Shown: positions 54,876 through 63,778 of the stretch, in pieces | Position numbering within the stretch: the first letter of the stretch is position 1 | How the letters are laid out: every line of letters begins with the position of its first letter | IMG/VR virus record: IMGVR_UViG_3300042484_002457 | Coordinates: 1-64,000 of that record | From: a virus | DNA: 64,000 nucleotides | Reading direction: 5' to 3' (one strand) | The notes under the pieces: generated by a model | What the model saw: only the letters and a program-made list of their open reading frames with translations | What the model was told of the DNA's origin: nothing | Databases searched by the model: none | Translations under genes and position numbers: made by a program

Positions 54876-56261
54876 ATGTTCCTCAGTTATATTACTTTGG
54901 CAGTTGCACTAAGCCTGTCAGTTATTGCCGCCTACTACTCCATTGCTGGCCTCACCGCAATCTTTGCCGCTGCTGTGATCCCTATTGTGATCATGGGTGG
55001 CATATTGGAAGTGGGCAAAGTTGTAGTTACCCTGTGGCTGCACGAGTACTGGCAACAGTGTCGTTTGCTGATGAAAATGTACCTGGTTCCAGCTGTGGCT
55101 GTGCTGATGCTGATCACCAGCATGGGCATTTTTGGTTTCTTGAGCAAGGCACACAGTGATCAAAGCATGGTATCAGGAGACGTGCAGGCCAAGATTGCAG
55201 TCTACGACGAAAAAATAAAAGTATCACAGGACAACATTGATGTTAATCGCAAAGCACTTAAACAGCTCGATGAGGCGGTGGATCAAAGCATGGCACGCTC
55301 GACAACAGAAACGGGTGCTGACAAAGCAGTGGCCATCCGTAAGTCGCAAGCAAAAGAAAGATCTAGACTACTGGCTGAAATTGCAGCCGAACAGAAAACA
55401 ATTAGTGCTCTTAGACAAGAACGAGCACCCATATCGGCCGAAGTACGAAAGGTTGAAGCCGAAGTTGGACCTATAAAATACATAGCCAAGTTGATCTACG
55501 GGGACAACCCCGATGCCAACCTGCTGGAAAAAGCAGTGACCTGGGTTATCATTGTGATTGTTGCGGTGTTTGATCCATTGGCTATCATGATGTTGTTGGC
55601 TGCAACAGAAAGTTTGAAGTGGGGGCGAGAAAAGCGATTGGCGCCGCAACCAACAGAATCCAACAGTGAACCAGAAGTAGAGGAACAGCCACCTGCAGAA
55701 CCAGAACCTGAAAAATCTATACTGGAACAACATCCGTACCTTACCCAAGGATTTGCGCACTTTACAGACTTGCAGCCCATAGTACACAAACCTGAGCCAA
55801 AAATTGATCCAGTGCCGGTTGAAGTTGCTCAGTCAGTAGAAGATGAAGAAGAGCGACCTGAGGTACAAGATGCAATTCGTCGATGGAAAGCAGAGAATCC
55901 CAACGACACATTGAAAAATCAGCGAGCACGCCTGGCACGTGGGGAAATTGACGAGCTGCCTTGGATGCAGTTGATCCAAGTATTGCCAGCTGCCACTAAC
56001 TCAGGGTATGGGAATCAGTTCCCGGGTAATGCCAACAAAGGCGACATATTTGTAAGAATTGACAAACTGCCCAATTTGGTCTATAAGTACAATGGTAATA
56101 ACTGGATTAAAATTGACAAAAATCTAACAGACAGTTACACTTATGATGTTGCCTACATTGATCACCTAATTGACAGAATCAGTTGTGGTGAGTACGACAC
56201 CGAGCTTTTGAGCGAAAGCGAAAAAGAACAAGTTAAACAACGTTTAGAAAATCGAGCATGA
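54876..56261 (+). CDS. Membrane protein with long coiled coil
   Basis: 461 residues. Two or three spans at the N-terminus (LSYITLAVALSLSVIAAYYSI, IFAAAVIPIVIMGGILEVGKVVVTLWL, and YLVPAVAVLMLITSMGIFGFLS). A long charged coiled coil follows (about 105-200), then a further hydrophobic part (VTWVIIVIVAVFDPLAIMMLLAATESL) and a Pro/Glu-rich tail of 180 residues. The layout is that of a cell-envelope protein and is common in aquatic T4-like phages. The proposed start at ATG 54876 follows the late element; a GTG at 54855 is upstream. Function unknown. It overlaps clpX by 4 bases. Confidence 0.72.
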   Translation: MFLSYITLAVALSLSVIAAYYSIAGLTAIFAAAVIPIVIMGGILEVGKVVVTLWLHEYWQQCRLLMKMYLVPAVAVLMLITSMGIFGFLSKAHSDQSMVSGDVQAKIAVYDEKIKVSQDNIDVNRKALKQLDEAVDQSMARSTTETGADKAVAIRKSQAKERSRLLAEIAAEQKTISALRQERAPISAEVRKVEAEVGPIKYIAKLIYGDNPDANLLEKAVTWVIIVIVAVFDPLAIMMLLAATESLKWGREKRLAPQPTESNSEPEVEEQPPAEPEPEKSILEQHPYLTQGFAHFTDLQPIVHKPEPKIDPVPVEVAQSVEDEEERPEVQDAIRRWKAENPNDTLKNQRARLARGEIDELPWMQLIQVLPAATNSGYGNQFPGNANKGDIFVRIDKLPNLVYKYNGNNWIKIDKNLTDSYTYDVAYIDHLIDRISCGEYDTELLSESEKEQVKQRLENRA

Positions 56262-57460
56262 AACAAACTGAAACCCAAGATACTTGCAACTTTTGCGGTA
56301 AACACAAAGATGCAGTGGCCAAGCTCATAGTAGGTGAAGATGTGGCCATCTGCAATGAGTGTGTGGAGTTGTGCCAAACGTTGTTGAAAGACGACACACC
56401 AGTCAAAGCTGCTGTTAATGCAATCCTAGATCCACTAAAAGTCAAACAACATCTAGACCAATACGTGATTGGACAAACACGAGCCAAGCAGTTGTTGAGC
56501 GTGGCTATTGTAAACCACTACAAGCGCATCAATAACCCCAATCCTGAAACTGAAATTGAAAAGACCAACATCCTCATGCTTGGCCCCACAGGCTCAGGAA
56601 AAACTTTGTTGGCTCGCAGTGTAGCACGTTATCTTGACGTGCCCTTTGTTATTGCTGATGCCACCAGTTTGACCGAAGCTGGTTATGTAGGCGATGATGT
56701 AGAAAGCTTGATCTCAAGACTTTTTGCTGCCGCTGAATACAGTGTTGAACGTTGCCAGCGTGGCATTGTGTTCATTGACGAAATTGACAAAATTAGTCGT
56801 CGCAGCGAAAGTGCCAGTATCACACGAGATGTCAGCGGCGAGGGTGTTCAGCAGGCCCTGCTCAAGCTGGTAGAAGGCACCAAGTGCCGCATCACTCCAC
56901 AGGGCGGGCGCAAGCACCCATCAGGTGAGACCGTGGAAATTGACACCACAAACATTTTGTTCATTGCTGGCGGAGCATTTGTGGGACTGGACAATCTTGT
57001 CAAGAGTCGTATCAAGGGCACCAGCATTGGGTTTAATGCACAGGTGGTCAAGGACTCCAAGCCCAGCTTGGATCATACCACACCTGAAGACCTTATCAAG
57101 TTTGGCATGATTCCTGAGTTTGTGGGGCGTTTCCCCAGTTGGGTGGCACTCAGTGAGCTTTCCAAGCAGGATCTTGTGCACATTCTGCAAGACGTCAAGC
57201 ACAGCTATGTGTCGCAGTATTCATGGTTGTTTGGTGTTGACGAAATTGAACTGGACTTTACACCTGAAAGCCTGGATCTCATTGCTGAACGCACTCTTGC
57301 TAACAAAACTGGAGCTCGTGGGCTGCACAGTGAACTAGAACGTGTGTTGCTGCCACACATGTTTTACCTTGCAGAGTATCGCAGACAAGGCATCAAGACC
57401 GTGACAATTGACGTTGAGCAAGTAAATACTCCAAAGGAGCTTCGAGTTGTAAATGGGTAA
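56258..57460 (+). CDS. clpX: ClpX, AAA+ unfoldase
   Basis: 400 residues, full length (E. coli 424). The N-terminal zinc-binding domain is [30 protein letters not shown] (about 10-39). Walker A is [11 protein letters not shown] (about 109), the GYVGDD pore loop is at about 142, Walker B is [10 protein letters not shown] (about 170), [10 protein letters not shown] is the RKH loop, and [10 protein letters not shown] (about 257) is the IGF loop that docks ClpP. All parts needed to feed a ClpP are present; no clpP gene is in the window, so it would use the host's. It could redirect proteolysis or remodel proteins alone. Confidence 0.95.
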
Positions 57461-57677
57461 ACTTTATGGTAGATCAGTGTTGGTACAAGACGGCCAAGTT
57501 GATCGAGCACTGCGTAAATTAAAAAAGAAGGTACAGGCATCAGGTTTGATGGAAGAGCTGCAACAACGAGCACACTACATCAAACCCACAACGGCCCGCA
57601 AAATCCAGGCAGGCGCTGCAAGATCGCGCTGGCGCAAAAAGCTTCGTGAGCAAGAACTGCCTAAAAAACTGTACTAA
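57453..57677 (+). CDS. bS21-like ribosomal protein
   Basis: 74 residues. The pattern VLVQDGQVDRALRKLKKKVQASGLMEELQQRAHYIKPTTARK and a basic end RKKLREQELPKKLY match bacterial ribosomal protein S21 (typical start VREGEPFDxALRRFKR, then YEKPTxxRK). S21 helps the 30S bind initiation sites. A phage copy could replace the host one and favour phage mRNA, many of which here seem leaderless or late. It overlaps clpX by 8 bases and the next gene by 1. Confidence 0.85.
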   Translation: MGKLYGRSVLVQDGQVDRALRKLKKKVQASGLMEELQQRAHYIKPTTARKIQAGAARSRWRKKLREQELPKKLY

Positions 57678-57940
57678 TGTACATTGAGTTCAGTCTGGTT
57701 GGGTGGTCAATTCGAGCAAGCTACGAGATTGACCACGCTCTACAGGAGTGGAGCAACAAATACAATATCCCTTATAACGTAAAAAACGTCAAGGAGTTCA
57801 AACGCACAACGTTTGATCAGGACGAGTATTATTCATTGTTTGCTATGACATGGAATCCTGATCAAAAACATCCTGCTTTGGGCAGGTGGCGCATTGTGTC
57901 TGACCTAAATAACAAAATAGAATTCAGTTCTAGTGTATAA
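57677..57940 (+). CDS. Hypothetical protein
   Basis: 87 residues: IEFSLVGWSIRASYEIDHALQEWSNKYNIPYNVKNVKEFKRTTFDQDEYYSLFAMTWNP. A ferredoxin-like alpha/beta fold is likely, and the sequence suggests a family of conserved phage proteins, unknown to me by name. It overlaps the S21-like gene by one base and leads into the Hsp20 promoter. Confidence 0.7.
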   Translation: MYIEFSLVGWSIRASYEIDHALQEWSNKYNIPYNVKNVKEFKRTTFDQDEYYSLFAMTWNPDQKHPALGRWRIVSDLNNKIEFSSSV

Positions 57941-57946
57941 TAAATA
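57939..57946 (+). promoter_or_regulatory. T4-type late promoter, AATAAATA
   Basis: 65 bases before ATG 58011, followed by CT. Confidence 0.55.
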
Positions 57947-57949
57947 CTC

Positions 57950-57979
57950 TTGTAAAGTGCTGATAAGCAGGCTTTACAA
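57950..57979 (+). promoter_or_regulatory. Hairpin at the 5' end of the Hsp20 mRNA
   Basis: TTGTAAAG (57950-57957) pairs with CTTTACAA (57972-57979); TGC/GCA (57958-57960, 57967-57969) extends it. The late start is predicted at about 57952, so the hairpin is essentially the 5' end. An RNA thermometer is possible because heat-shock genes often have one, but the AAAGGAG site is outside the stem. Confidence 0.45.
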
Positions 57980-58010
57980 AGTCATAAATCGCTTAATAAA
58001 GGAGAATAAC

Positions 58011-58463
58011 ATGACAAAAACTTTAACTCTTCGTTCTTTCGACATTCCCGCAATCACCAAATTTGGTATCGGCTTTGATAACATGTTTGATGAACTCATG
58101 CGGGTAAGCGCCCAACAAGGCTCAACAAATTATCCACCCTACAACATTGTACAAATCAACGAAGATGAGTACATGATTAGTCTTGCTGTGGCTGGTTTTG
58201 GGCTTGATAATCTCTCAGTTACCAAGGACAAAAATTTCTTGATCATTGAAGGCAAAGAATATCAGTCTGACAGCGAAAAGATTGTGCCAAACTACCTGCA
58301 CAAAGGTATTAGCAATAGAGATTTCCGTCGTGAATTCCAACTTGCAGATCATGTGGAAATCAACAATGCGCACCTTGAACTTGGTATCTTGAATGTGCGT
58401 TTAAAGCGCGAAGTTCCTGAGGAAGCCAGGCCTAAAACTATTGCTATCACTTACAAAACTTGA
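58011..58463 (+). CDS. Small heat-shock protein, Hsp20/IbpA type
   Basis: 150 residues. The alpha-crystallin domain starts at PPYNIVQINEDEYMISLAVAGFGLDNLSV (about 44-72) and includes LIIEGKEYQSDSEK, YLHKGISNRDFRREFQLADHVEINNAHLELGILNVRLKREVPEE. It holds unfolding proteins in solution. ATG 58011 with AAAGGAG is the start; an in-frame extension to 57933 overlaps the promoter. A T4-like phage Hsp20 is usual in aquatic phages and may help assembly. Confidence 0.93.
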   Translation: MTKTLTLRSFDIPAITKFGIGFDNMFDELMRVSAQQGSTNYPPYNIVQINEDEYMISLAVAGFGLDNLSVTKDKNFLIIEGKEYQSDSEKIVPNYLHKGISNRDFRREFQLADHVEINNAHLELGILNVRLKREVPEEARPKTIAITYKT

Positions 58464-58469
58464 TATAAT
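58441..58469 (+). promoter_or_regulatory. Possible sigma70-type promoter for clpS
   Basis: TTGCTA 58441-58446, 17-base spacer, TATAAT 58464-58469; the late element TGTAAATA is 3 bases downstream. Confidence 0.4.
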
Positions 58470-58471
58470 AG

Positions 58472-58479
58472 TGTAAATA
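58472..58479 (+). promoter_or_regulatory. T4-type late promoter, TGTAAATA, with hairpin leader
   Basis: 41 bases before ATG 58520. CAGTGGCGGC (58480-58489) pairs with GCTGCCACTG (58495-58504), ten base pairs with one G-T. The predicted start lies within the 5' arm. Confidence 0.5.
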
Positions 58480-58519
58480 CAGTGGCGGCGCAGTGCTGCC
58501 ACTGGCAACAAGGAACAAA

Positions 58520-58834
58520 ATGTCACAATCAGAAACACGTACAAAAATCAAACCCTTGGAATCTATCATTGAGCCTCCAATGTTTCGAGTAATTTATCTT
58601 AACGATAATACCACTACCTATGACTTTGTTGTTGAAACCTTGGTTGACTATTTTAACTACACTGAAGAAACTGCTGATCAGATCACTGTGGATATTCATG
58701 AATCAGGATCGGCTATTGTGGCTGTGCTGCCCTATGAAATTGCCGAACAAAAAGGCGTTGAAGTCACAATGTTGGCTCGTGCACAAAGCTATCCTTTGCA
58801 GATCAAGCTTGAGCCTGAATCAGTAACTCAGTAA
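58520..58834 (+). CDS. clpS: ClpS-like adaptor
   Basis: 104 residues, right size for ClpS. FRVIYLNDNTTTYDFVVETLVDYF (about 22-45) keeps the NDx(T) segment, the Asn-Asp pair that binds N-degrons; VDIHESGSAIVAVLPYEIAEQK (about 61-82) has the conserved His and the AE-x-K helix; ends LQIKLEPE. ClpS normally brings N-end-rule substrates to ClpA. The window encodes ClpX and not ClpA, so it would act on the host ClpAP or with another partner. ATG 58520 chosen for AAGGA upstream. Confidence 0.9.
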   Translation: MSQSETRTKIKPLESIIEPPMFRVIYLNDNTTTYDFVVETLVDYFNYTEETADQITVDIHESGSAIVAVLPYEIAEQKGVEVTMLARAQSYPLQIKLEPESVTQ

Positions 58835-59642: not shown

Positions 59643-59996
59643 ATGAACATTATATTTGGCGATGCAGTAAAAGAGATACCCGATAGCTACACAATTCTAG
59701 AACTTGACACATTTCGACTACCAAATGCTCCGGATCCTGTGCCGTTTTATTGCTTGATTGAAAAGATTCCCATGGGAGACTTTGCAACCCTGGAGCACTG
59801 GAAAAAGATACATGCTGATTTGATCACACTGTATCGACAACAGCAGTGGAACTATTGCGAAAAAGCCCTGGAAAGCTTGTTGGGCAAATGGAACGGAGAA
59901 GTTGACACATTCTATCAAAGCTTGCTAGAGCGCATCAAAGACCACAAAGAAAACCCACCGCCCAAGGGCTGGGACGGCATACTAGACAAAAAATAA
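59643..59996 (+). CDS. Conserved phage protein
   Basis: 117 residues: FGDAVKEIPDSYTILELDTFRLPNAPDPVPFYCLIEKIPMGDFATLEHWKKIHADLITLYRQQQWNYCEKALESLLGKWNGEVDTFYQSLLERI. I recall this N-terminal half in cyanophage-type T4-like genomes, unassigned. The gene starts 26 bases after the divergent metallophosphoesterase start, with AAAGGA upstream. It ends near a terminator. Confidence 0.72.
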   Translation: MNIIFGDAVKEIPDSYTILELDTFRLPNAPDPVPFYCLIEKIPMGDFATLEHWKKIHADLITLYRQQQWNYCEKALESLLGKWNGEVDTFYQSLLERIKDHKENPPPKGWDGILDKK

Positions 59997-60017: not shown

Positions 60018-60047
60018 AAACCCCGCGTAAATACTATGCGGGGTTTT
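60018..60047 (+). terminator. Intrinsic terminator with a late promoter in its loop
   Basis: AAACCCCGC (60018-60026) pairs with GCGGGGTTT (60038-60046) and the loop (60027-60037) is GTAAATACTAT. The T-tail TTTT follows. The loop holds most of a late promoter for csgF. Confidence 0.78.
60026..60033 (+). promoter_or_regulatory. T4-type late promoter, CGTAAATA, nested in a terminator
   Basis: Followed by CTAT as in the T4 late consensus. It would start transcripts about 60039, 11 bases before ATG 60050. The leader has no strong ribosome-binding site. Confidence 0.58.
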
Positions 60048-60049
60048 CC

Positions 60050-60487
60050 ATGAAAAACATAATAATAATAGCCTTGCTTGCTGTTTCAACACGGGCCGGA
60101 GCCACGGAGCTAGTACATCAATTCAATTCGCCTGCCTTTTCAGGAATGGGCTACAGTAGTCACGTGCTTACAATTGAGCAACTGGAAGCTACCCGTCGTC
60201 AAAAACTACGAGAAGAAGAAGCCAGCAGGCTGGCCCGGGCCGAGCTTGCGGCCAAACAAACCAACATAGCTAAATTCCTAGTCAACGTAGAAAGTCGCAT
60301 CTATGCTCAGTTGAGCAAGCAGTTGGCAGACTCGTTATTCAGCGGTGGCGGCACCACTGGCAGTTTGGATTTTCAAGGCACCAACATCAGCTGGGTCAAG
60401 ACTTCTACTGATGTCACCATGACCATTCTAGAAAGCAATGGTAATCGCACAGAGATCACTGTGCCACTAGCGAGTTTTGCATTTTGA
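60050..60487 (+). CDS. csgF: CsgF-like curli assembly factor
   Basis: 145 residues (E. coli CsgF 138). Signal peptide MKNIIIIALLAVSTRAGA, then the mature start (about 20) ELVHQFNSPAFSGMGYSSHVLTIEQLE. This matches the CsgF N-terminal region that plugs CsgG (FxNPxFGGN...LLxxA). A charged helix follows, then a long beta end (TGSLDFQGTNISWVKTSTDVTMTILESNGNRTEITVPLASF). CsgF sits in the CsgG pore and nucleates fibre on the outer face. It overlaps csgG by one base. Confidence 0.88.
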   Translation: MKNIIIIALLAVSTRAGATELVHQFNSPAFSGMGYSSHVLTIEQLEATRRQKLREEEASRLARAELAAKQTNIAKFLVNVESRIYAQLSKQLADSLFSGGGTTGSLDFQGTNISWVKTSTDVTMTILESNGNRTEITVPLASFAF

Positions 60488-61311
60488 TGAAAGCACTATT
60501 TTTATCATTGTTGTTGGCCTTGACTGGGTGTGCCAGTCTGGACCAAACTCAGTTTGATTCGCAGCCACCTCAGTTGGTGCCGCGACAAAACTTGTTGGCC
60601 ATGTTACCCGAACTGGATGGTCCACGAATACCTATTGCTGTATATGGTTTCACAGACAAGACTGGTCAGAAAAAAAGCAGTGAGAAGTTGGCGCTGTTTT
60701 CTACAGCAGTAACACAAGGTGCCGAAGTGTTCTTGATCAAGGCCTTACAAGATACTCCCAACTGGTTCACAGTGGTAGAACGTGTGAGTCTAGACAATCT
60801 GATCAAAGAGCGCCAGCTGATTAGAAATCAGCGCGAAGTATACGAAGGCAAAGAAGCCAAGCCGCTCAAGCCATTGCTGGTAGCCGGCCTTATGATTGAA
60901 GGTGGCATCATAGGTTATGACACCAACATCACGTCAGGCGGCAGTGGTGCTAGAATACTAGGCATTGGGGCCAGTACACAATATCGTGTGGATGAAATTG
61001 TTATTTCCATGCGAGTAGTTTCAGTTAACACTGGGGAAGTGTTGCTGAATACGGCTGTGAGTAAAACTGTTTTTAGCACAGCTCACAACCAAGGAGTTCT
61101 CAAATTTGTCGATGTTGGCACAATCAGCATTGAACTTGAGAATGGGGCTGCTATCAACGAGCCTACAACATACGCAGTTCGAATAGCCATTGAACAAGCG
61201 GTGTATGAAATGATCCAAGAAGGGGCAAAACGAAAACTTTGGTCATACAAAAAGGGTACACCCCCAAGGAGTGGCGTAGAGGATAGTAACTCACCCACAA
61301 AACAAAAATGA
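60487..61311 (+). CDS. csgG: CsgG-like outer-membrane secretion lipoprotein
   Basis: 274 residues (E. coli CsgG 277). Lipoprotein signal MKALFLSLLLALTGC with LTGC lipobox (Cys about 15). CsgG features are PRIPIAVYGFTDKTGQKK (about 47-64), GAEVFLIKALQDTPNWFTVVERVSLDNLIKERQLIR (about 80-115), LKPLLVAGLMIEGGIIGYDTNITSGGSGARILGIGAS, the YRVDEIVISMRVVSVNTGEVLLNTAVSKTVFS strands and EQAVYEMIQEGA. Nine copies should form a diffusion pore for curlin. In a phage it may secrete curlin-like protein, admit molecules, or help lysis. Confidence 0.92.
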   Translation: MKALFLSLLLALTGCASLDQTQFDSQPPQLVPRQNLLAMLPELDGPRIPIAVYGFTDKTGQKKSSEKLALFSTAVTQGAEVFLIKALQDTPNWFTVVERVSLDNLIKERQLIRNQREVYEGKEAKPLKPLLVAGLMIEGGIIGYDTNITSGGSGARILGIGASTQYRVDEIVISMRVVSVNTGEVLLNTAVSKTVFSTAHNQGVLKFVDVGTISIELENGAAINEPTTYAVRIAIEQAVYEMIQEGAKRKLWSYKKGTPPRSGVEDSNSPTKQK

Positions 61312-61934
61312 AAATAACAAGATCTCTCAAAGGGACAATATTTGCATTGGGCATGATGGCGTTATCGCATGCACAGGCTGCAAATGAAATTTATATAGAG
61401 CAAGTTGGCGATAATGCCACTGTTACGTTGAAACAAGCTGGCAACAACAACACTATTGGTGATGCCCTGGCGCCAGCCTTTATTGGCGGTGGACAGAACA
61501 CAGTATACATTGAACAATCAGGCAGTGGCAATCAGCTGGCTATGTTGGTCAACGGTGCTGGCACCAATGTCACTTCCATAGTCACAGGCGACAGCAACCA
61601 ACAGACCATCACATGCGGAACCAGCATCAGCGCCAGCTGTAGCGGATCTGCAATCACGCATACCATAACAGGTGACAACAACGATGTGCAAAGTTTGCTG
61701 GGCACCACCGGAGGAGCACACACCAGCAATATCACAGTGCTAGGGGATTACAACCATGTCACACACAACAGTTCAGGATCAGGCGCCAACTCCGCCACAA
61801 TCAATGTTAGTGGGTCAGGTTCTGGTGCAACTCCCAACGCAATTACTGTGTCTCAAAGCGGTATGAATACTCAGAGTGCCACTGTCAATGCTTCAGGCAA
61901 TAACCTTAACATTAGCATTATTCAGTCTGACTAA
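61308..61934 (+). CDS. Curlin-like exported repeat protein
   Basis: 208 residues. Signal peptide MKITRSLKGTIFALGMMALSHAQA; the mature protein holds curlin-type repeats with spaced N/Q-x-(V/I)-x-(I/V)-x-Q-x-G-x-x-N: NEIYIEQVGDNATVTLKQAGNNN, NTVYIEQSGSGNQLAML, NAITVSQSGMNTQSATV. The composition (Ser, Gly, Asn, Gln, Thr) is as in CsgA and CsgB. A CGTSISASCSGS pair of cysteines in the middle is unusual. It is the likely substrate of the CsgG/CsgF pore. It overlaps csgG by 4 bases, and the next gene starts inside its end. Confidence 0.82.
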   Translation: MKITRSLKGTIFALGMMALSHAQAANEIYIEQVGDNATVTLKQAGNNNTIGDALAPAFIGGGQNTVYIEQSGSGNQLAMLVNGAGTNVTSIVTGDSNQQTITCGTSISASCSGSAITHTITGDNNDVQSLLGTTGGAHTSNITVLGDYNHVTHNSSGSGANSATINVSGSGSGATPNAITVSQSGMNTQSATVNASGNNLNISIIQSD

Positions 61935-62964
61935 TGCCTGGGCCGGCGTAGGCAAGGTCACAGAAATGTCGGGGCCGACAGAAATAATACGGGCTCAAAA
62001 AAGCATATCCAGTGCTGTGAATACTGCGGTGGAAATGAATGACACCATTGTCACGGCTCGATCCCGAGCTGAACTGACTTTTGAAGATGCCACCAAAGTA
62101 AAAATTACCGAGCAGTCAAAGCTGATAATTGATGACTTCGTATACGACCCCAAGCAAGGAACAGGCAAGTTGGCCATGAAAGTGGCCTTGGGCACAGCTA
62201 GATATGCATCGGGCCAAATAGCCAAAAATAATCCTCAACAGGTATCAGTCAAAACCCCTACAGCGTCAATTACTGTCAGGGGCACAGACTTTTCAATGAC
62301 AGTGGACGAGTTAGGTCGTAGCCTTGTTATGCTACTGCCCAGCTGCGATGACAAAACGTGTGTGACTGGGGCTATTGAAGTCAGTAACGAGGCTGGCAGC
62401 ATTTTGATGACCCAGGCCTATCAAGCCACCTTGGTTTCATCAGCAGACACTCTGCCTACAAGACCAGTTGTGTTAACCATTGATCAAGCCAACATCAACA
62501 ACATGTTGATCATTAGCCGACCTCGGGAAATCAGCGAAGACAACCGAGACAACAAACGCGATGTTCGAACAGCCTTGGACGTGAATTTTCTTGATCAAGA
62601 CTTTTTAAAACCTGCAGACTTGGACAATCAGCTGGATGCGTTTAATCAACTGGATCGCAATGAACTAGAAGATGACCTGTTGCCCAACGCATTGGATGCT
62701 GTAAATGCTGCTTTGTCAGCCACGCAAGAAGCCATGTCAACTACACTCAGCATGCTACCGGGCTATGACGCAGGCTCAGGGTTGAAATGGCGCACAACCG
62801 ATTCAGAACAGCTGGTTTTGACTAGATACAGCACTCATATTTTTGAACTAACTGTGCCCCGAGAACAAGGGGCAATCTTGGATCTACAACAGGACGGTAT
62901 TCCTGTGTATCAAAAAATCAACACAGGTGGAACCACCACCATCACAGTTATCCAGAGTCAATAA
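61888..62964 (+). CDS. FecR-domain exported protein
   Basis: 358 residues from ATG 61888. Signal peptide MLQAITLTLALFSLTNAWA, then a FecR-like beta domain (about 20-175): GKVTEMSGPTEIIRAQKSISSAVNTAVEMNDTIVTARSRAELTFEDATKVKI, ending in VSVKTPTASITVRGTDFSMTV. The rest is a helical linker rich in Asp and Leu (LDQDFLKPADLDNQLDAFNQLDRNELEDDLLPNALDAVNAA) and a small C-terminal domain. FecR domains bind peptidoglycan or control assembly of surface structures. The first 47 bases overlap the curlin-like gene in another frame. A GTG at 61876 would add four residues. Function with curli is inferred. Confidence 0.8.
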   Translation: MLQAITLTLALFSLTNAWAGVGKVTEMSGPTEIIRAQKSISSAVNTAVEMNDTIVTARSRAELTFEDATKVKITEQSKLIIDDFVYDPKQGTGKLAMKVALGTARYASGQIAKNNPQQVSVKTPTASITVRGTDFSMTVDELGRSLVMLLPSCDDKTCVTGAIEVSNEAGSILMTQAYQATLVSSADTLPTRPVVLTIDQANINNMLIISRPREISEDNRDNKRDVRTALDVNFLDQDFLKPADLDNQLDAFNQLDRNELEDDLLPNALDAVNAALSATQEAMSTTLSMLPGYDAGSGLKWRTTDSEQLVLTRYSTHIFELTVPREQGAILDLQQDGIPVYQKINTGGTTTITVIQSQ

Positions 62965-62967
62965 ATA
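62960..62967 (+). promoter_or_regulatory. T4-type late promoter, AATAAATA
   Basis: Followed by CTATT, an exact match to the T4 late consensus continuation. 25 bases before GTG 62992, with AAGGAG between. Confidence 0.6.
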
Positions 62968-62991: not shown

Positions 62992-63273
62992 GTGGGTGAA
63001 TTTTTTAAATTGGTAGCCGAAGTAGGCTTCCCGATAGCAGCAGCTATAGGTGCAGGATATTTTGTATTCTTGACATTGAAATTTATTTTGGCTGGCGTAA
63101 CCAGCAGCGTAAATGGTATCAAAGGCATCATTGGAGCACTGGACAATCGAGTCAAAACCATGAATCACGACGTGATACGCATTGACACTATTGTGAGCAA
63201 TGCTCTTGGACTTAGGCCTGATGTGGACCGTATTGCACGAGCAGATGGCAAGAACGATGCTCGGAGAGACTGA
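62992..63273 (+). CDS. Small membrane protein, copy 1 of a tandem pair
   Basis: 93 residues, GTG start with AAGGAG. One long span (FPIAAAIGAGYFVFLTLKFILAGV) follows a short polar start, then a helical tail (NRVKTMNHDVIRIDTIVSNALGLRPDVDR). It is related to the gene at 63455: GFPI.AA...GY, then D.R...... D.IR....V...L.LR. Such pairs can be holin and antiholin. The short time to a desaturase gene also suggests a membrane role. No certain family. Confidence 0.65.
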   Translation: MGEFFKLVAEVGFPIAAAIGAGYFVFLTLKFILAGVTSSVNGIKGIIGALDNRVKTMNHDVIRIDTIVSNALGLRPDVDRIARADGKNDARRD

Positions 63274-63455
63274 TGTTGTACTTTGATTATCATTGGGACC
63301 TAGACAAAGATGTTATGATTCCGGATCCTGAGTTGAATACTGACCAATTAGATTGGAAACCCGGGGACTTGTTTCAGGTTCAAGAATTCAATGGGAAGAA
63401 ATTTCTTTGCAGAGTTGACCCTTTGGTTAAATTTATACGAGATGGGGTAAAATAA
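63273..63455 (+). CDS. Small hypothetical protein
   Basis: 60 residues with TGATG overlap upstream and TAATG overlap downstream. LYFDYHWDLDKDVMIPDPELNTDQLDWKPGDLFQVQEFNGKKFLCRVDPLVKFI has the pattern of a small beta barrel. It sits between the two membrane proteins as one translational unit. No family recognised. Confidence 0.68.
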   Translation: MLYFDYHWDLDKDVMIPDPELNTDQLDWKPGDLFQVQEFNGKKFLCRVDPLVKFIRDGVK

Positions 63456-63778
63456 TGGACATAGCTGAACTCATAAACAAATATGGTTTCCCAATCGTGG
63501 CAGCTGGTGGCACCGGGTATATGATATACTATGTGTGGGAGTGGGCCACAAAAGAAATCAAGCCTGTGCTGAGCGAAGCCAACACTACTCTGATTGCCTT
63601 GATTGATCGCATTCGTATGCTGGACAATGACTTGATACGTTTGAATCAAAAAGTCAACACTGTGCTTCATTTGCGTGGCAAAATCATTGAAAGCGAACGT
63701 GTACTAGAAGCTCAAAAAGTAGACAATGAAGCTGAAAAGAAGTTTGAAGCTGCGGTCAAGACTGACACACAGAAATAA
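63455..63778 (+). CDS. Small membrane protein, copy 2 of a tandem pair
   Basis: 107 residues. One span (KYGFPIVAAGGTGYMIYYVWEWA) then a charged helical tail (ALIDRIRMLDNDLIRLNQKVNTVLHLRGKIIESERVLEAQKVDNEAEKKFEAAV). It is clearly related to the gene at 62992, so the two came from duplication. A holin-like or envelope role is possible. It ends 3 bases before the desaturase gene. Confidence 0.65.
   Translation: MDIAELINKYGFPIVAAGGTGYMIYYVWEWATKEIKPVLSEANTTLIALIDRIRMLDNDLIRLNQKVNTVLHLRGKIIESERVLEAQKVDNEAEKKFEAAVKTDTQK

Follow-up and report, generated by a model that had tools for sequence, protein, structure and literature searches.

Why would a virus carry a curli-type secretion locus, and at what stage of infection would it be made? 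The question is raised by positions 60018 to 62964 of a 64,000-nucleotide (nt) stretch of viral DNA (the window). The window is bases 1 to 64000 of the 209,543-bp IMG/VR virus record IMGVR_UViG_3300042484_002457, which is itself a fragment. A first-pass annotation, made from the letters alone, had read the locus as csgF, csgG, a curlin-like repeat gene, and a gene for a FecR-domain protein in one tight operon behind a T4-type late promoter, and had proposed that together they make a complete set of pore, plug, cargo, and controller. Here, we report that the pore (CsgG), the plug (CsgF), the substrate with curlin repeats, and the FecR-domain protein are real and are encoded in one overlapping block. 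We also report that a conserved, covarying hairpin buries the csgF ribosome-binding site, with the late promoter in its loop. We see an even chance that the phage uses the locus as an anchored type VIII (curli) module for secretion and fibers, one that stays off until late infection.

RESULTS

Four overlapping genes encode CsgF, CsgG, curlin-repeat, and FecR-domain proteins

The four genes lie head to tail on the plus strand at 60050-62964, and their overlaps bear out the claim of one tight operon. The ATG of csgG (60487-61311; 274 amino acids [aa]) overlaps the stop of csgF (60050-60487; 145 aa) as TGATG. The overlap between csgG and the curlin-repeat gene (61308-61934; 208 aa) is ATGA, and fecR (about 61888-62964; 358 aa) starts inside the curlin gene, with an overlap of 47 nt. 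The segment that codes for the fecR signal peptide, 61888-61934, is also the end of the curlin gene, read in a different frame. Eight of nine loci printed for comparison have a similar overlap.

CsgF (E 8.5e-13), CsgG (E 7e-52), and the FecR protein (E 5e-11) all matched their Pfam families above the cut-off. The lipobox, the CsgF plug segment, and the signal peptides that had been pointed out are visible in the translations. The N-terminal plug segment of CsgF, a putative pore plug and extracellular chaperone with a signal peptide, is HQFNSPAFSGMGYSSHVL. In a 26-member CsgF alignment, the plug residues are invariant and have the motif F-x-x-P-x-F-x-G. A search of PDB sequences with CsgF returned nothing useful. 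The same search with CsgG matched E. coli CsgG (E 1.6e-47, residues 3-255). CsgG has the lipobox LTGC and is a predicted outer-membrane lipoprotein pore of the type VIII (curli) kind.

The curlin-repeat protein, a candidate fiber subunit, has a signal peptide, Q-x-G repeats, and a conserved Cys pair. Alone, it is below the Pfam threshold for Curlin_rpt (E 0.006, 17.0 bits versus a cut-off of 20.7); of the 37 homologues in the alignment, 34 reach E ≤ 0.01 for Curlin_rpt, with a best value of 1.7e-10. Its AlphaFold2 (AF2) model is a beta-solenoid with a strand every ~11 residues (pLDDT 87, pTM 0.79). The Pfam, PDB, and homologue matches together uphold the reading of this locus as genuinely curli type. 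CsgE, which had been called absent, was not found in any of 10 records (this record and nine large relatives), and the E. coli control was positive; CsgC and CsgD were not searched for.

Some relatives carry additional surface-type sequences. Among 82 csgG genes, 30 (L014, L047, and others) give a longer product of >320 aa, with a charged/proline-rich linker. Two were tested for a bacterial SH3 domain at the C terminus, which was clear in L047 (SH3_3, 5.6e-9) and sub-threshold in L014. This SH3 domain possibly binds peptidoglycan. In one sublineage, a secreted protein of 617 to 681 aa with a C-terminal Phe is encoded between csgF and csgG (L015:2989-5004, L022:3109-4962, and L035:2959-5004; also L029, L033, L043, and L053). 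The inserted protein has no Pfam domain and appears to resemble an autotransporter or outer-membrane protein. Both it and the longer CsgG fit an envelope or surface role. We did not use a 1.5-kb CsgG record labelled "Salmonella phage" (H7), because it is a short contig of unverified origin.

A covarying hairpin masks the csgF ribosome-binding site

The csgF leader contains a late-promoter-like TAAATA at 60028-60033, in the loop of a hairpin (AAACCCCGCG...TGCGGGGTTT) that occupies 60018-60046 on the plus strand (5' arm, 60018-60027; 3' arm, 60037-60046). The Shine-Dalgarno (SD) sequence GGGG (60040-60043) is within the 3' arm. The leader RNA has a predicted folding energy of -18.7 kcal/mol (z -5.0). 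By analogy with T4, a late transcript is expected to start near 60039, and in folding, RNA starting about there was unable to form the hairpin. Of 448 AT-rich hexamers in the 209.5-kb record, TAAATA shows the strongest enrichment upstream of genes (47 upstream, 10.4-fold). The T4-type late promoter proposed in the first-pass annotation stands, but it is more exactly a promoter inside an SD-masking hairpin.

The hairpin recurs in related phages. We compared 35 distinct csgF leaders in which the position of TAAATA is suitable. The stem reached P ≤ 0.05 against shuffled flanks in 20 of them, and the SD sequence was in the arm in 31. A separate, non-overlapping set of csgF leaders had significant stems in 19/50, and control leaders from membrane-protein genes had stems in 3/21 and none. 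The arm sequences are fully divergent among relatives. In seven aligned csgF leaders, 90.5% of cells pair, and 10 of 12 pairs are altered on both sides. The covariation score of the arms was 0.82, compared to 0.28 ± 0.06 when shuffled and ≤0.20 when slid. A stem in this position might simply serve the upstream gene as an intrinsic terminator, and TTTT does follow it in the window. However, most relatives keep the stem without a T-run, the SD sequence is in the 3' arm, and TAAATA is in the loop. We consider a plain terminator very unlikely.

The csgF hairpin is the best TAAATA-centered stem among the 107 TAAATA sites of the record. A genome-wide habit of placing TAAATA in hairpins was ruled out, because stems at the 107 sites score, overall, the same as stems at control hexamers, with csgF as the outlier. 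The second-best leader of this kind (CGTAGTT..TAAATA..AACTACGGAG) belongs to an open reading frame (ORF) at record position about 191920 (L093:3921-4503). This ORF reads like a GIY-YIG homing endonuclease, and T4 I-TevI also has a TAAATA-hairpin leader.

In T4, the SD sequences of genes e, soc, 49, and I-TevI are hidden in long early transcripts, and the 5' arm is missing from the late ones (PMC3014915, PMC2988022). By its layout, the csgF leader is a putative device of the T4 gene e/soc/I-TevI type, a promoter inside a hairpin that masks the ribosome site, although here it is applied to a secretion and fiber operon, unlike in T4. Read-through messages from upstream genes would hold the whole hairpin and remain untranslated. 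Messages begun at the late promoter would be without the 5' arm and would be translated, as for gene e. Late-only translation of the curli block is strongly predicted. The kinship of this phage to T4 appears to be distant. Relatives of TerL, UvsX, UvsW, gp41, gp44, and DNA polymerase are present in this record, and the Gp23 and clamp families were not found in it. A T4-type late sigma family is present in 10/10 large sister records, and a T4-type capsid, like the late sigma, occurs in long sister records.

A cyclase and a membrane-protein pair accompany the four genes

The functional unit reaches beyond 62964 and beyond the end of the window. A second late-promoter-like TAAATA (AATAAATACTATTAT; 62962-62967, plus strand), which has no hairpin, lies ahead of plus-strand genes for two small membrane proteins. 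These are TM1 (62992-63273, GTG start, 93 aa; phrog_18771, 1.5e-35) and its phrog_18771 paralogue TM2 (63455-63778, 107 aa; 9.8e-31). Past the end of the window, the minus strand encodes a CHASE2 adenylate cyclase (65171-67222; CHASE2, 4e-39; Guanylate_cyc, 8.6e-19).

We sought all module components in 80 csgG loci from IMG/VR and 80 FecR-centered matches. csgF, csgG, curlin, and FecR genes were together in 77/82 csgG loci, and 75 of these were tight. Curlin and FecR genes regularly found without csgG would have spoken against the original proposal. In newly fetched FecR-centered viral loci, csgG was present in 76/79, and the remaining 3 end at contig ends. CHASE2 was found in 15/15 large records and the TM pair in 19/20 csgG records. 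The cyclase and the membrane-protein pair are near-obligate module partners, and so the "complete" four-part set of the first-pass annotation consisted of real genes but missed these conserved components. The placement of TM1 and TM2 varies among records (upstream, downstream, or inverted), mostly within about 10 kb of csgG. Where a TM pair had no csgG within about 10 kb, csgG was elsewhere in 10/11 records. The pair shifts place yet mostly stays near csgG, and therefore its linkage is not mere inherited gene order. The cyclase, too, accompanies the module in varying positions and orientations. In the annotated phage collection, TM2 relatives were found only in HTVC008M and Melnitz strains, directly ahead of csgF.

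Clearly bacterial CsgG loci, among the 80 top bacterial-genome matches, had no FecR and no membrane-protein pair. Unlike the other bacterial-genome matches, six contigs from metagenome-assembled genomes (L095-L099 and L138) contain the phage-type module, in whole or in part. They are labelled Rhodobacteraceae, Pirellulales, Pelagibacter, and Sphingobacteriales and are probably mis-binned phage DNA.

The membrane-protein pair raises the possibility that the module serves lysis timing. CsgG-CsgF would open the outer membrane late in infection with a holin-like pair and so aid or time the release of progeny, and curlin and FecR would gate or anchor the pore. Consistent with this, 17 of 20 TM2 family members match holin phrog_4898 at E ≤ 0.01 (best, 5e-5), the RNA switch is the same as that of T4 lysozyme, and the idea has been suggested for Melnitz on structural grounds (PMC9004378). 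However, the holin similarity is weak and limited to ~25 residues, and T4 genes unconnected with lysis (soc, 49, and I-TevI) are under the same switch. A holin match was found for 1 of 18 TM1 family members, and a TM2 profile search of PDB sequences gave nothing useful. Also, a bare pore would not need a fiber substrate and FecR, and these are conserved as much as the pore, which makes a bare lysis pore less likely than a fiber system. We regard a lysis-timing pore as somewhat unlikely.

The FecR-domain protein is more plausibly an anchor than a controller

All 42 homologues of the FecR-domain protein match Pfam FecR. In regulators of the FecR family, an anti-sigma part lies in the cytoplasm and a helix spans the inner membrane. 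In the phage protein, the FecR fold begins at about residue 20, directly after the signal peptide, and we found no cytoplasmic anti-sigma part and no internal transmembrane or other hydrophobic segment. Its AF2 model has a confident beta-domain at about 20-200, a low-confidence stretch at about 205-290, and C-terminal strands at 299-356, mostly spaced by about 10 to 11 residues. In the C terminus, Gln residues are invariant and the ending is ITI-Q, as in curlin repeats. A profile comparison aligned this region end to end with the curlin C terminus (P 9e-4). Under other settings, P was 0.003, 1 of 200 column shuffles scored as high, and other module regions scored lower. In Foldseek, the FecR domain also matches the "cell surface anchoring domain" 5ix9 (63 columns, 1.0 Å, E 0.016), which may be an RTX-adhesin retention region. 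Together, these features suggest, but do not prove, that the protein consists of a domain for retention in the periplasm, a tether, and a tail that nucleates the fiber.

The label "controller" is unsupported, because the protein has no anti-sigma part, no internal membrane helix, and a curlin-like tail. Even so, it might be a true regulator of the module, with iron, citrate, or the state of the envelope as its input and the CHASE2 cyclase (cyclic AMP) or a host sigma factor as its output, as suggested in PMC9599517. The best solved-structure match of the FecR domain is the PupR signaling domain of an anti-sigma regulator (Foldseek 6ovk, E 1.7e-4), and the protein may thus have a signaling role; the CHASE2 adenylate cyclase always accompanies the module. 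However, although the FecR fold is held in common with FecR/PupR cell-surface signaling regulators, the phage protein is without their anti-sigma and transmembrane parts, and its C-terminal tail is substrate-like. A regulatory role is unlikely in our view, and the FecR protein is more plausibly a fiber anchor or nucleator.

Other genes around the module

Ahead of csgF, a 117-aa ORF (59643-59996) is similar to the adenylate cyclase of the module in its C-terminal tail. They share a P..WDGI..K ending, the ORF matches the large ORF of L078 (E 2e-10), and Pfam gave it no kinase match. Further upstream, ClpX, ribosomal protein S21, Hsp20, and ClpS form a phage gene cluster at 56258-58834. In 35 loci, hsp20 and clpS are again found upstream of the curli block. 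On the other side, a minus-strand D-Ala-D-Ala carboxypeptidase gene (Peptidase_S11) overlaps the cyclase gene, and a fatty-acid desaturase gene follows the membrane-protein pair (record 64476-65174 and 63782-64495, respectively; L086). An ORF at record 75934-77022 (L086) reads, by eye and from sequence only, like a PstS-type phosphate-binding protein, a known phage auxiliary gene.

DISCUSSION

Phage csgF and csgG genes have been described in pelagimyophages and phage Melnitz by Zaragoza-Solas et al. in 2020 (PMC7029224) and Buchholz et al. in 2022 (PMC9004378). Wittmers et al. (2022; PMC9599517) then reported csgF-csgG-csgA/B-FecR from two phage families, and an additional curlin and an adenylate cyclase were often part of the set. 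These modules have no CsgC/D/E and are abundant in ocean viromes. The Melnitz GenBank annotation already names curlin and FecR proteins as well. Therefore, the csgF-csgG-curlin-FecR gene set is already published, and the novelty that the first-pass annotation saw in adding a substrate and FecR to the pore genes does not hold. What is new here is the larger module, the SD-masking late switch, and FecR as a likely anchor.

The pelagiphage type VIII secretion module (PMC9599517, HTVC008M, and Melnitz) has the same csgF-csgG-curlin-FecR order, an adenylate cyclase, and no CsgE, and the CsgG encoded in the window is about 52% identical to those of HTVC008M and Melnitz. However, the membrane-protein pair is downstream of the block here and upstream of csgF in HTVC008M and Melnitz, and the cyclase is on the opposite strand here, unlike in the pelagiphage module. 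The SD-masking late-promoter hairpin is at csgF here, and there is none at csgF of HTVC008M and Melnitz. The histidine kinase published as lying ahead of csgF is not matched here. The "histidine kinase, sometimes two" of Wittmers et al. is probably the membrane-protein pair, whose members, at 92 to 115 aa, are too short to be kinases. Bacterial curli (type VIII secretion) systems share CsgG and CsgF homology and a curlin-repeat substrate. CsgE is absent here, and among the 80 top bacterial-genome matches, FecR and the membrane-protein pair were confined to the contigs that look like mis-binned phage DNA. Alphaproteobacterial curli systems are likewise without CsgC/D/E (PMC9599517), and so the absence of CsgE is not strictly defining.

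How might an anchored, late-expressed module work? CsgG and CsgF would form an outer-membrane pore, and the curlin protein would be exported through it and then assemble into beta-solenoid fibers outside. The FecR domain would stay periplasmic, while its linker and curlin-like C terminus would enter the pore, or pass through it, and there nucleate the fiber and keep it in place. In E. coli, these tasks are split between CsgB and CsgF. The periplasmic CHASE2 domain of the cyclase may report envelope state. The most likely use would be an adhesive cell surface just before or at lysis, which would keep neighboring hosts or debris near the burst. Burst-time adhesion of this kind ("sibling capture"; PMC7029224) fits best, with lysis assistance next.

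Several observations weigh against an anchored fiber module that is switched on late. A T4-type late sigma was not found in this record, which is a fragment. The curlin model had no PDB match at E ≤ 1e-3 in Foldseek, and the CsgA fibril was matched only at E 0.57. The similarity between the FecR tail and curlin is modest (hhalign probability, 11 to 22%), the linker of the proposed anchor is low confidence in AF2, and the top fold match of the FecR domain is the PupR domain described above. Cells infected with Melnitz showed no clumping in the study by Buchholz et al. (PMC9004378), and the holin-like membrane-protein pair points toward lysis instead.

Fibers that coat the infected cell might also mask its surface and block competing phages. 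T4 sets up exclusion (imm and sp) early, and the late-only translation predicted here would be poor timing for it. For this reason, we disfavor superinfection exclusion and think it quite unlikely. On the other side, a predicted surface export machinery is certainly encoded, and some relatives insert the secreted, outer-membrane-protein-like gene with a C-terminal Phe codon between csgF and csgG. Exclusion has also been proposed in PMC9599517.

Returning to burst-time adhesion, the parts might amount to one evolved machine for remodeling the surface at the burst. The FecR-domain protein would be a fiber anchor of a new kind, in which a linker through the CsgG-CsgF pore joins the periplasmic retention domain to the curlin-like nucleating tail. 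A lysozyme-type RNA switch would confine the tethered amyloid to the end of infection, and a holin-like pair and an envelope-sensing cyclase would work alongside. We offer this combined proposal tentatively and consider it possible but doubtful.

The function of phage curli modules is disputed, with host capture, exclusion, uptake, and lysis all considered. A late-only switch of the T4 lysozyme type in one large-phage lineage would set the timing of the operon and so narrow its possible functions. With FecR as a likely fiber anchor and the membrane-protein pair as a core partner, other proteins become relevant. Amyloid export as a dedicated end-of-infection function of phages, if true, would be new biology.

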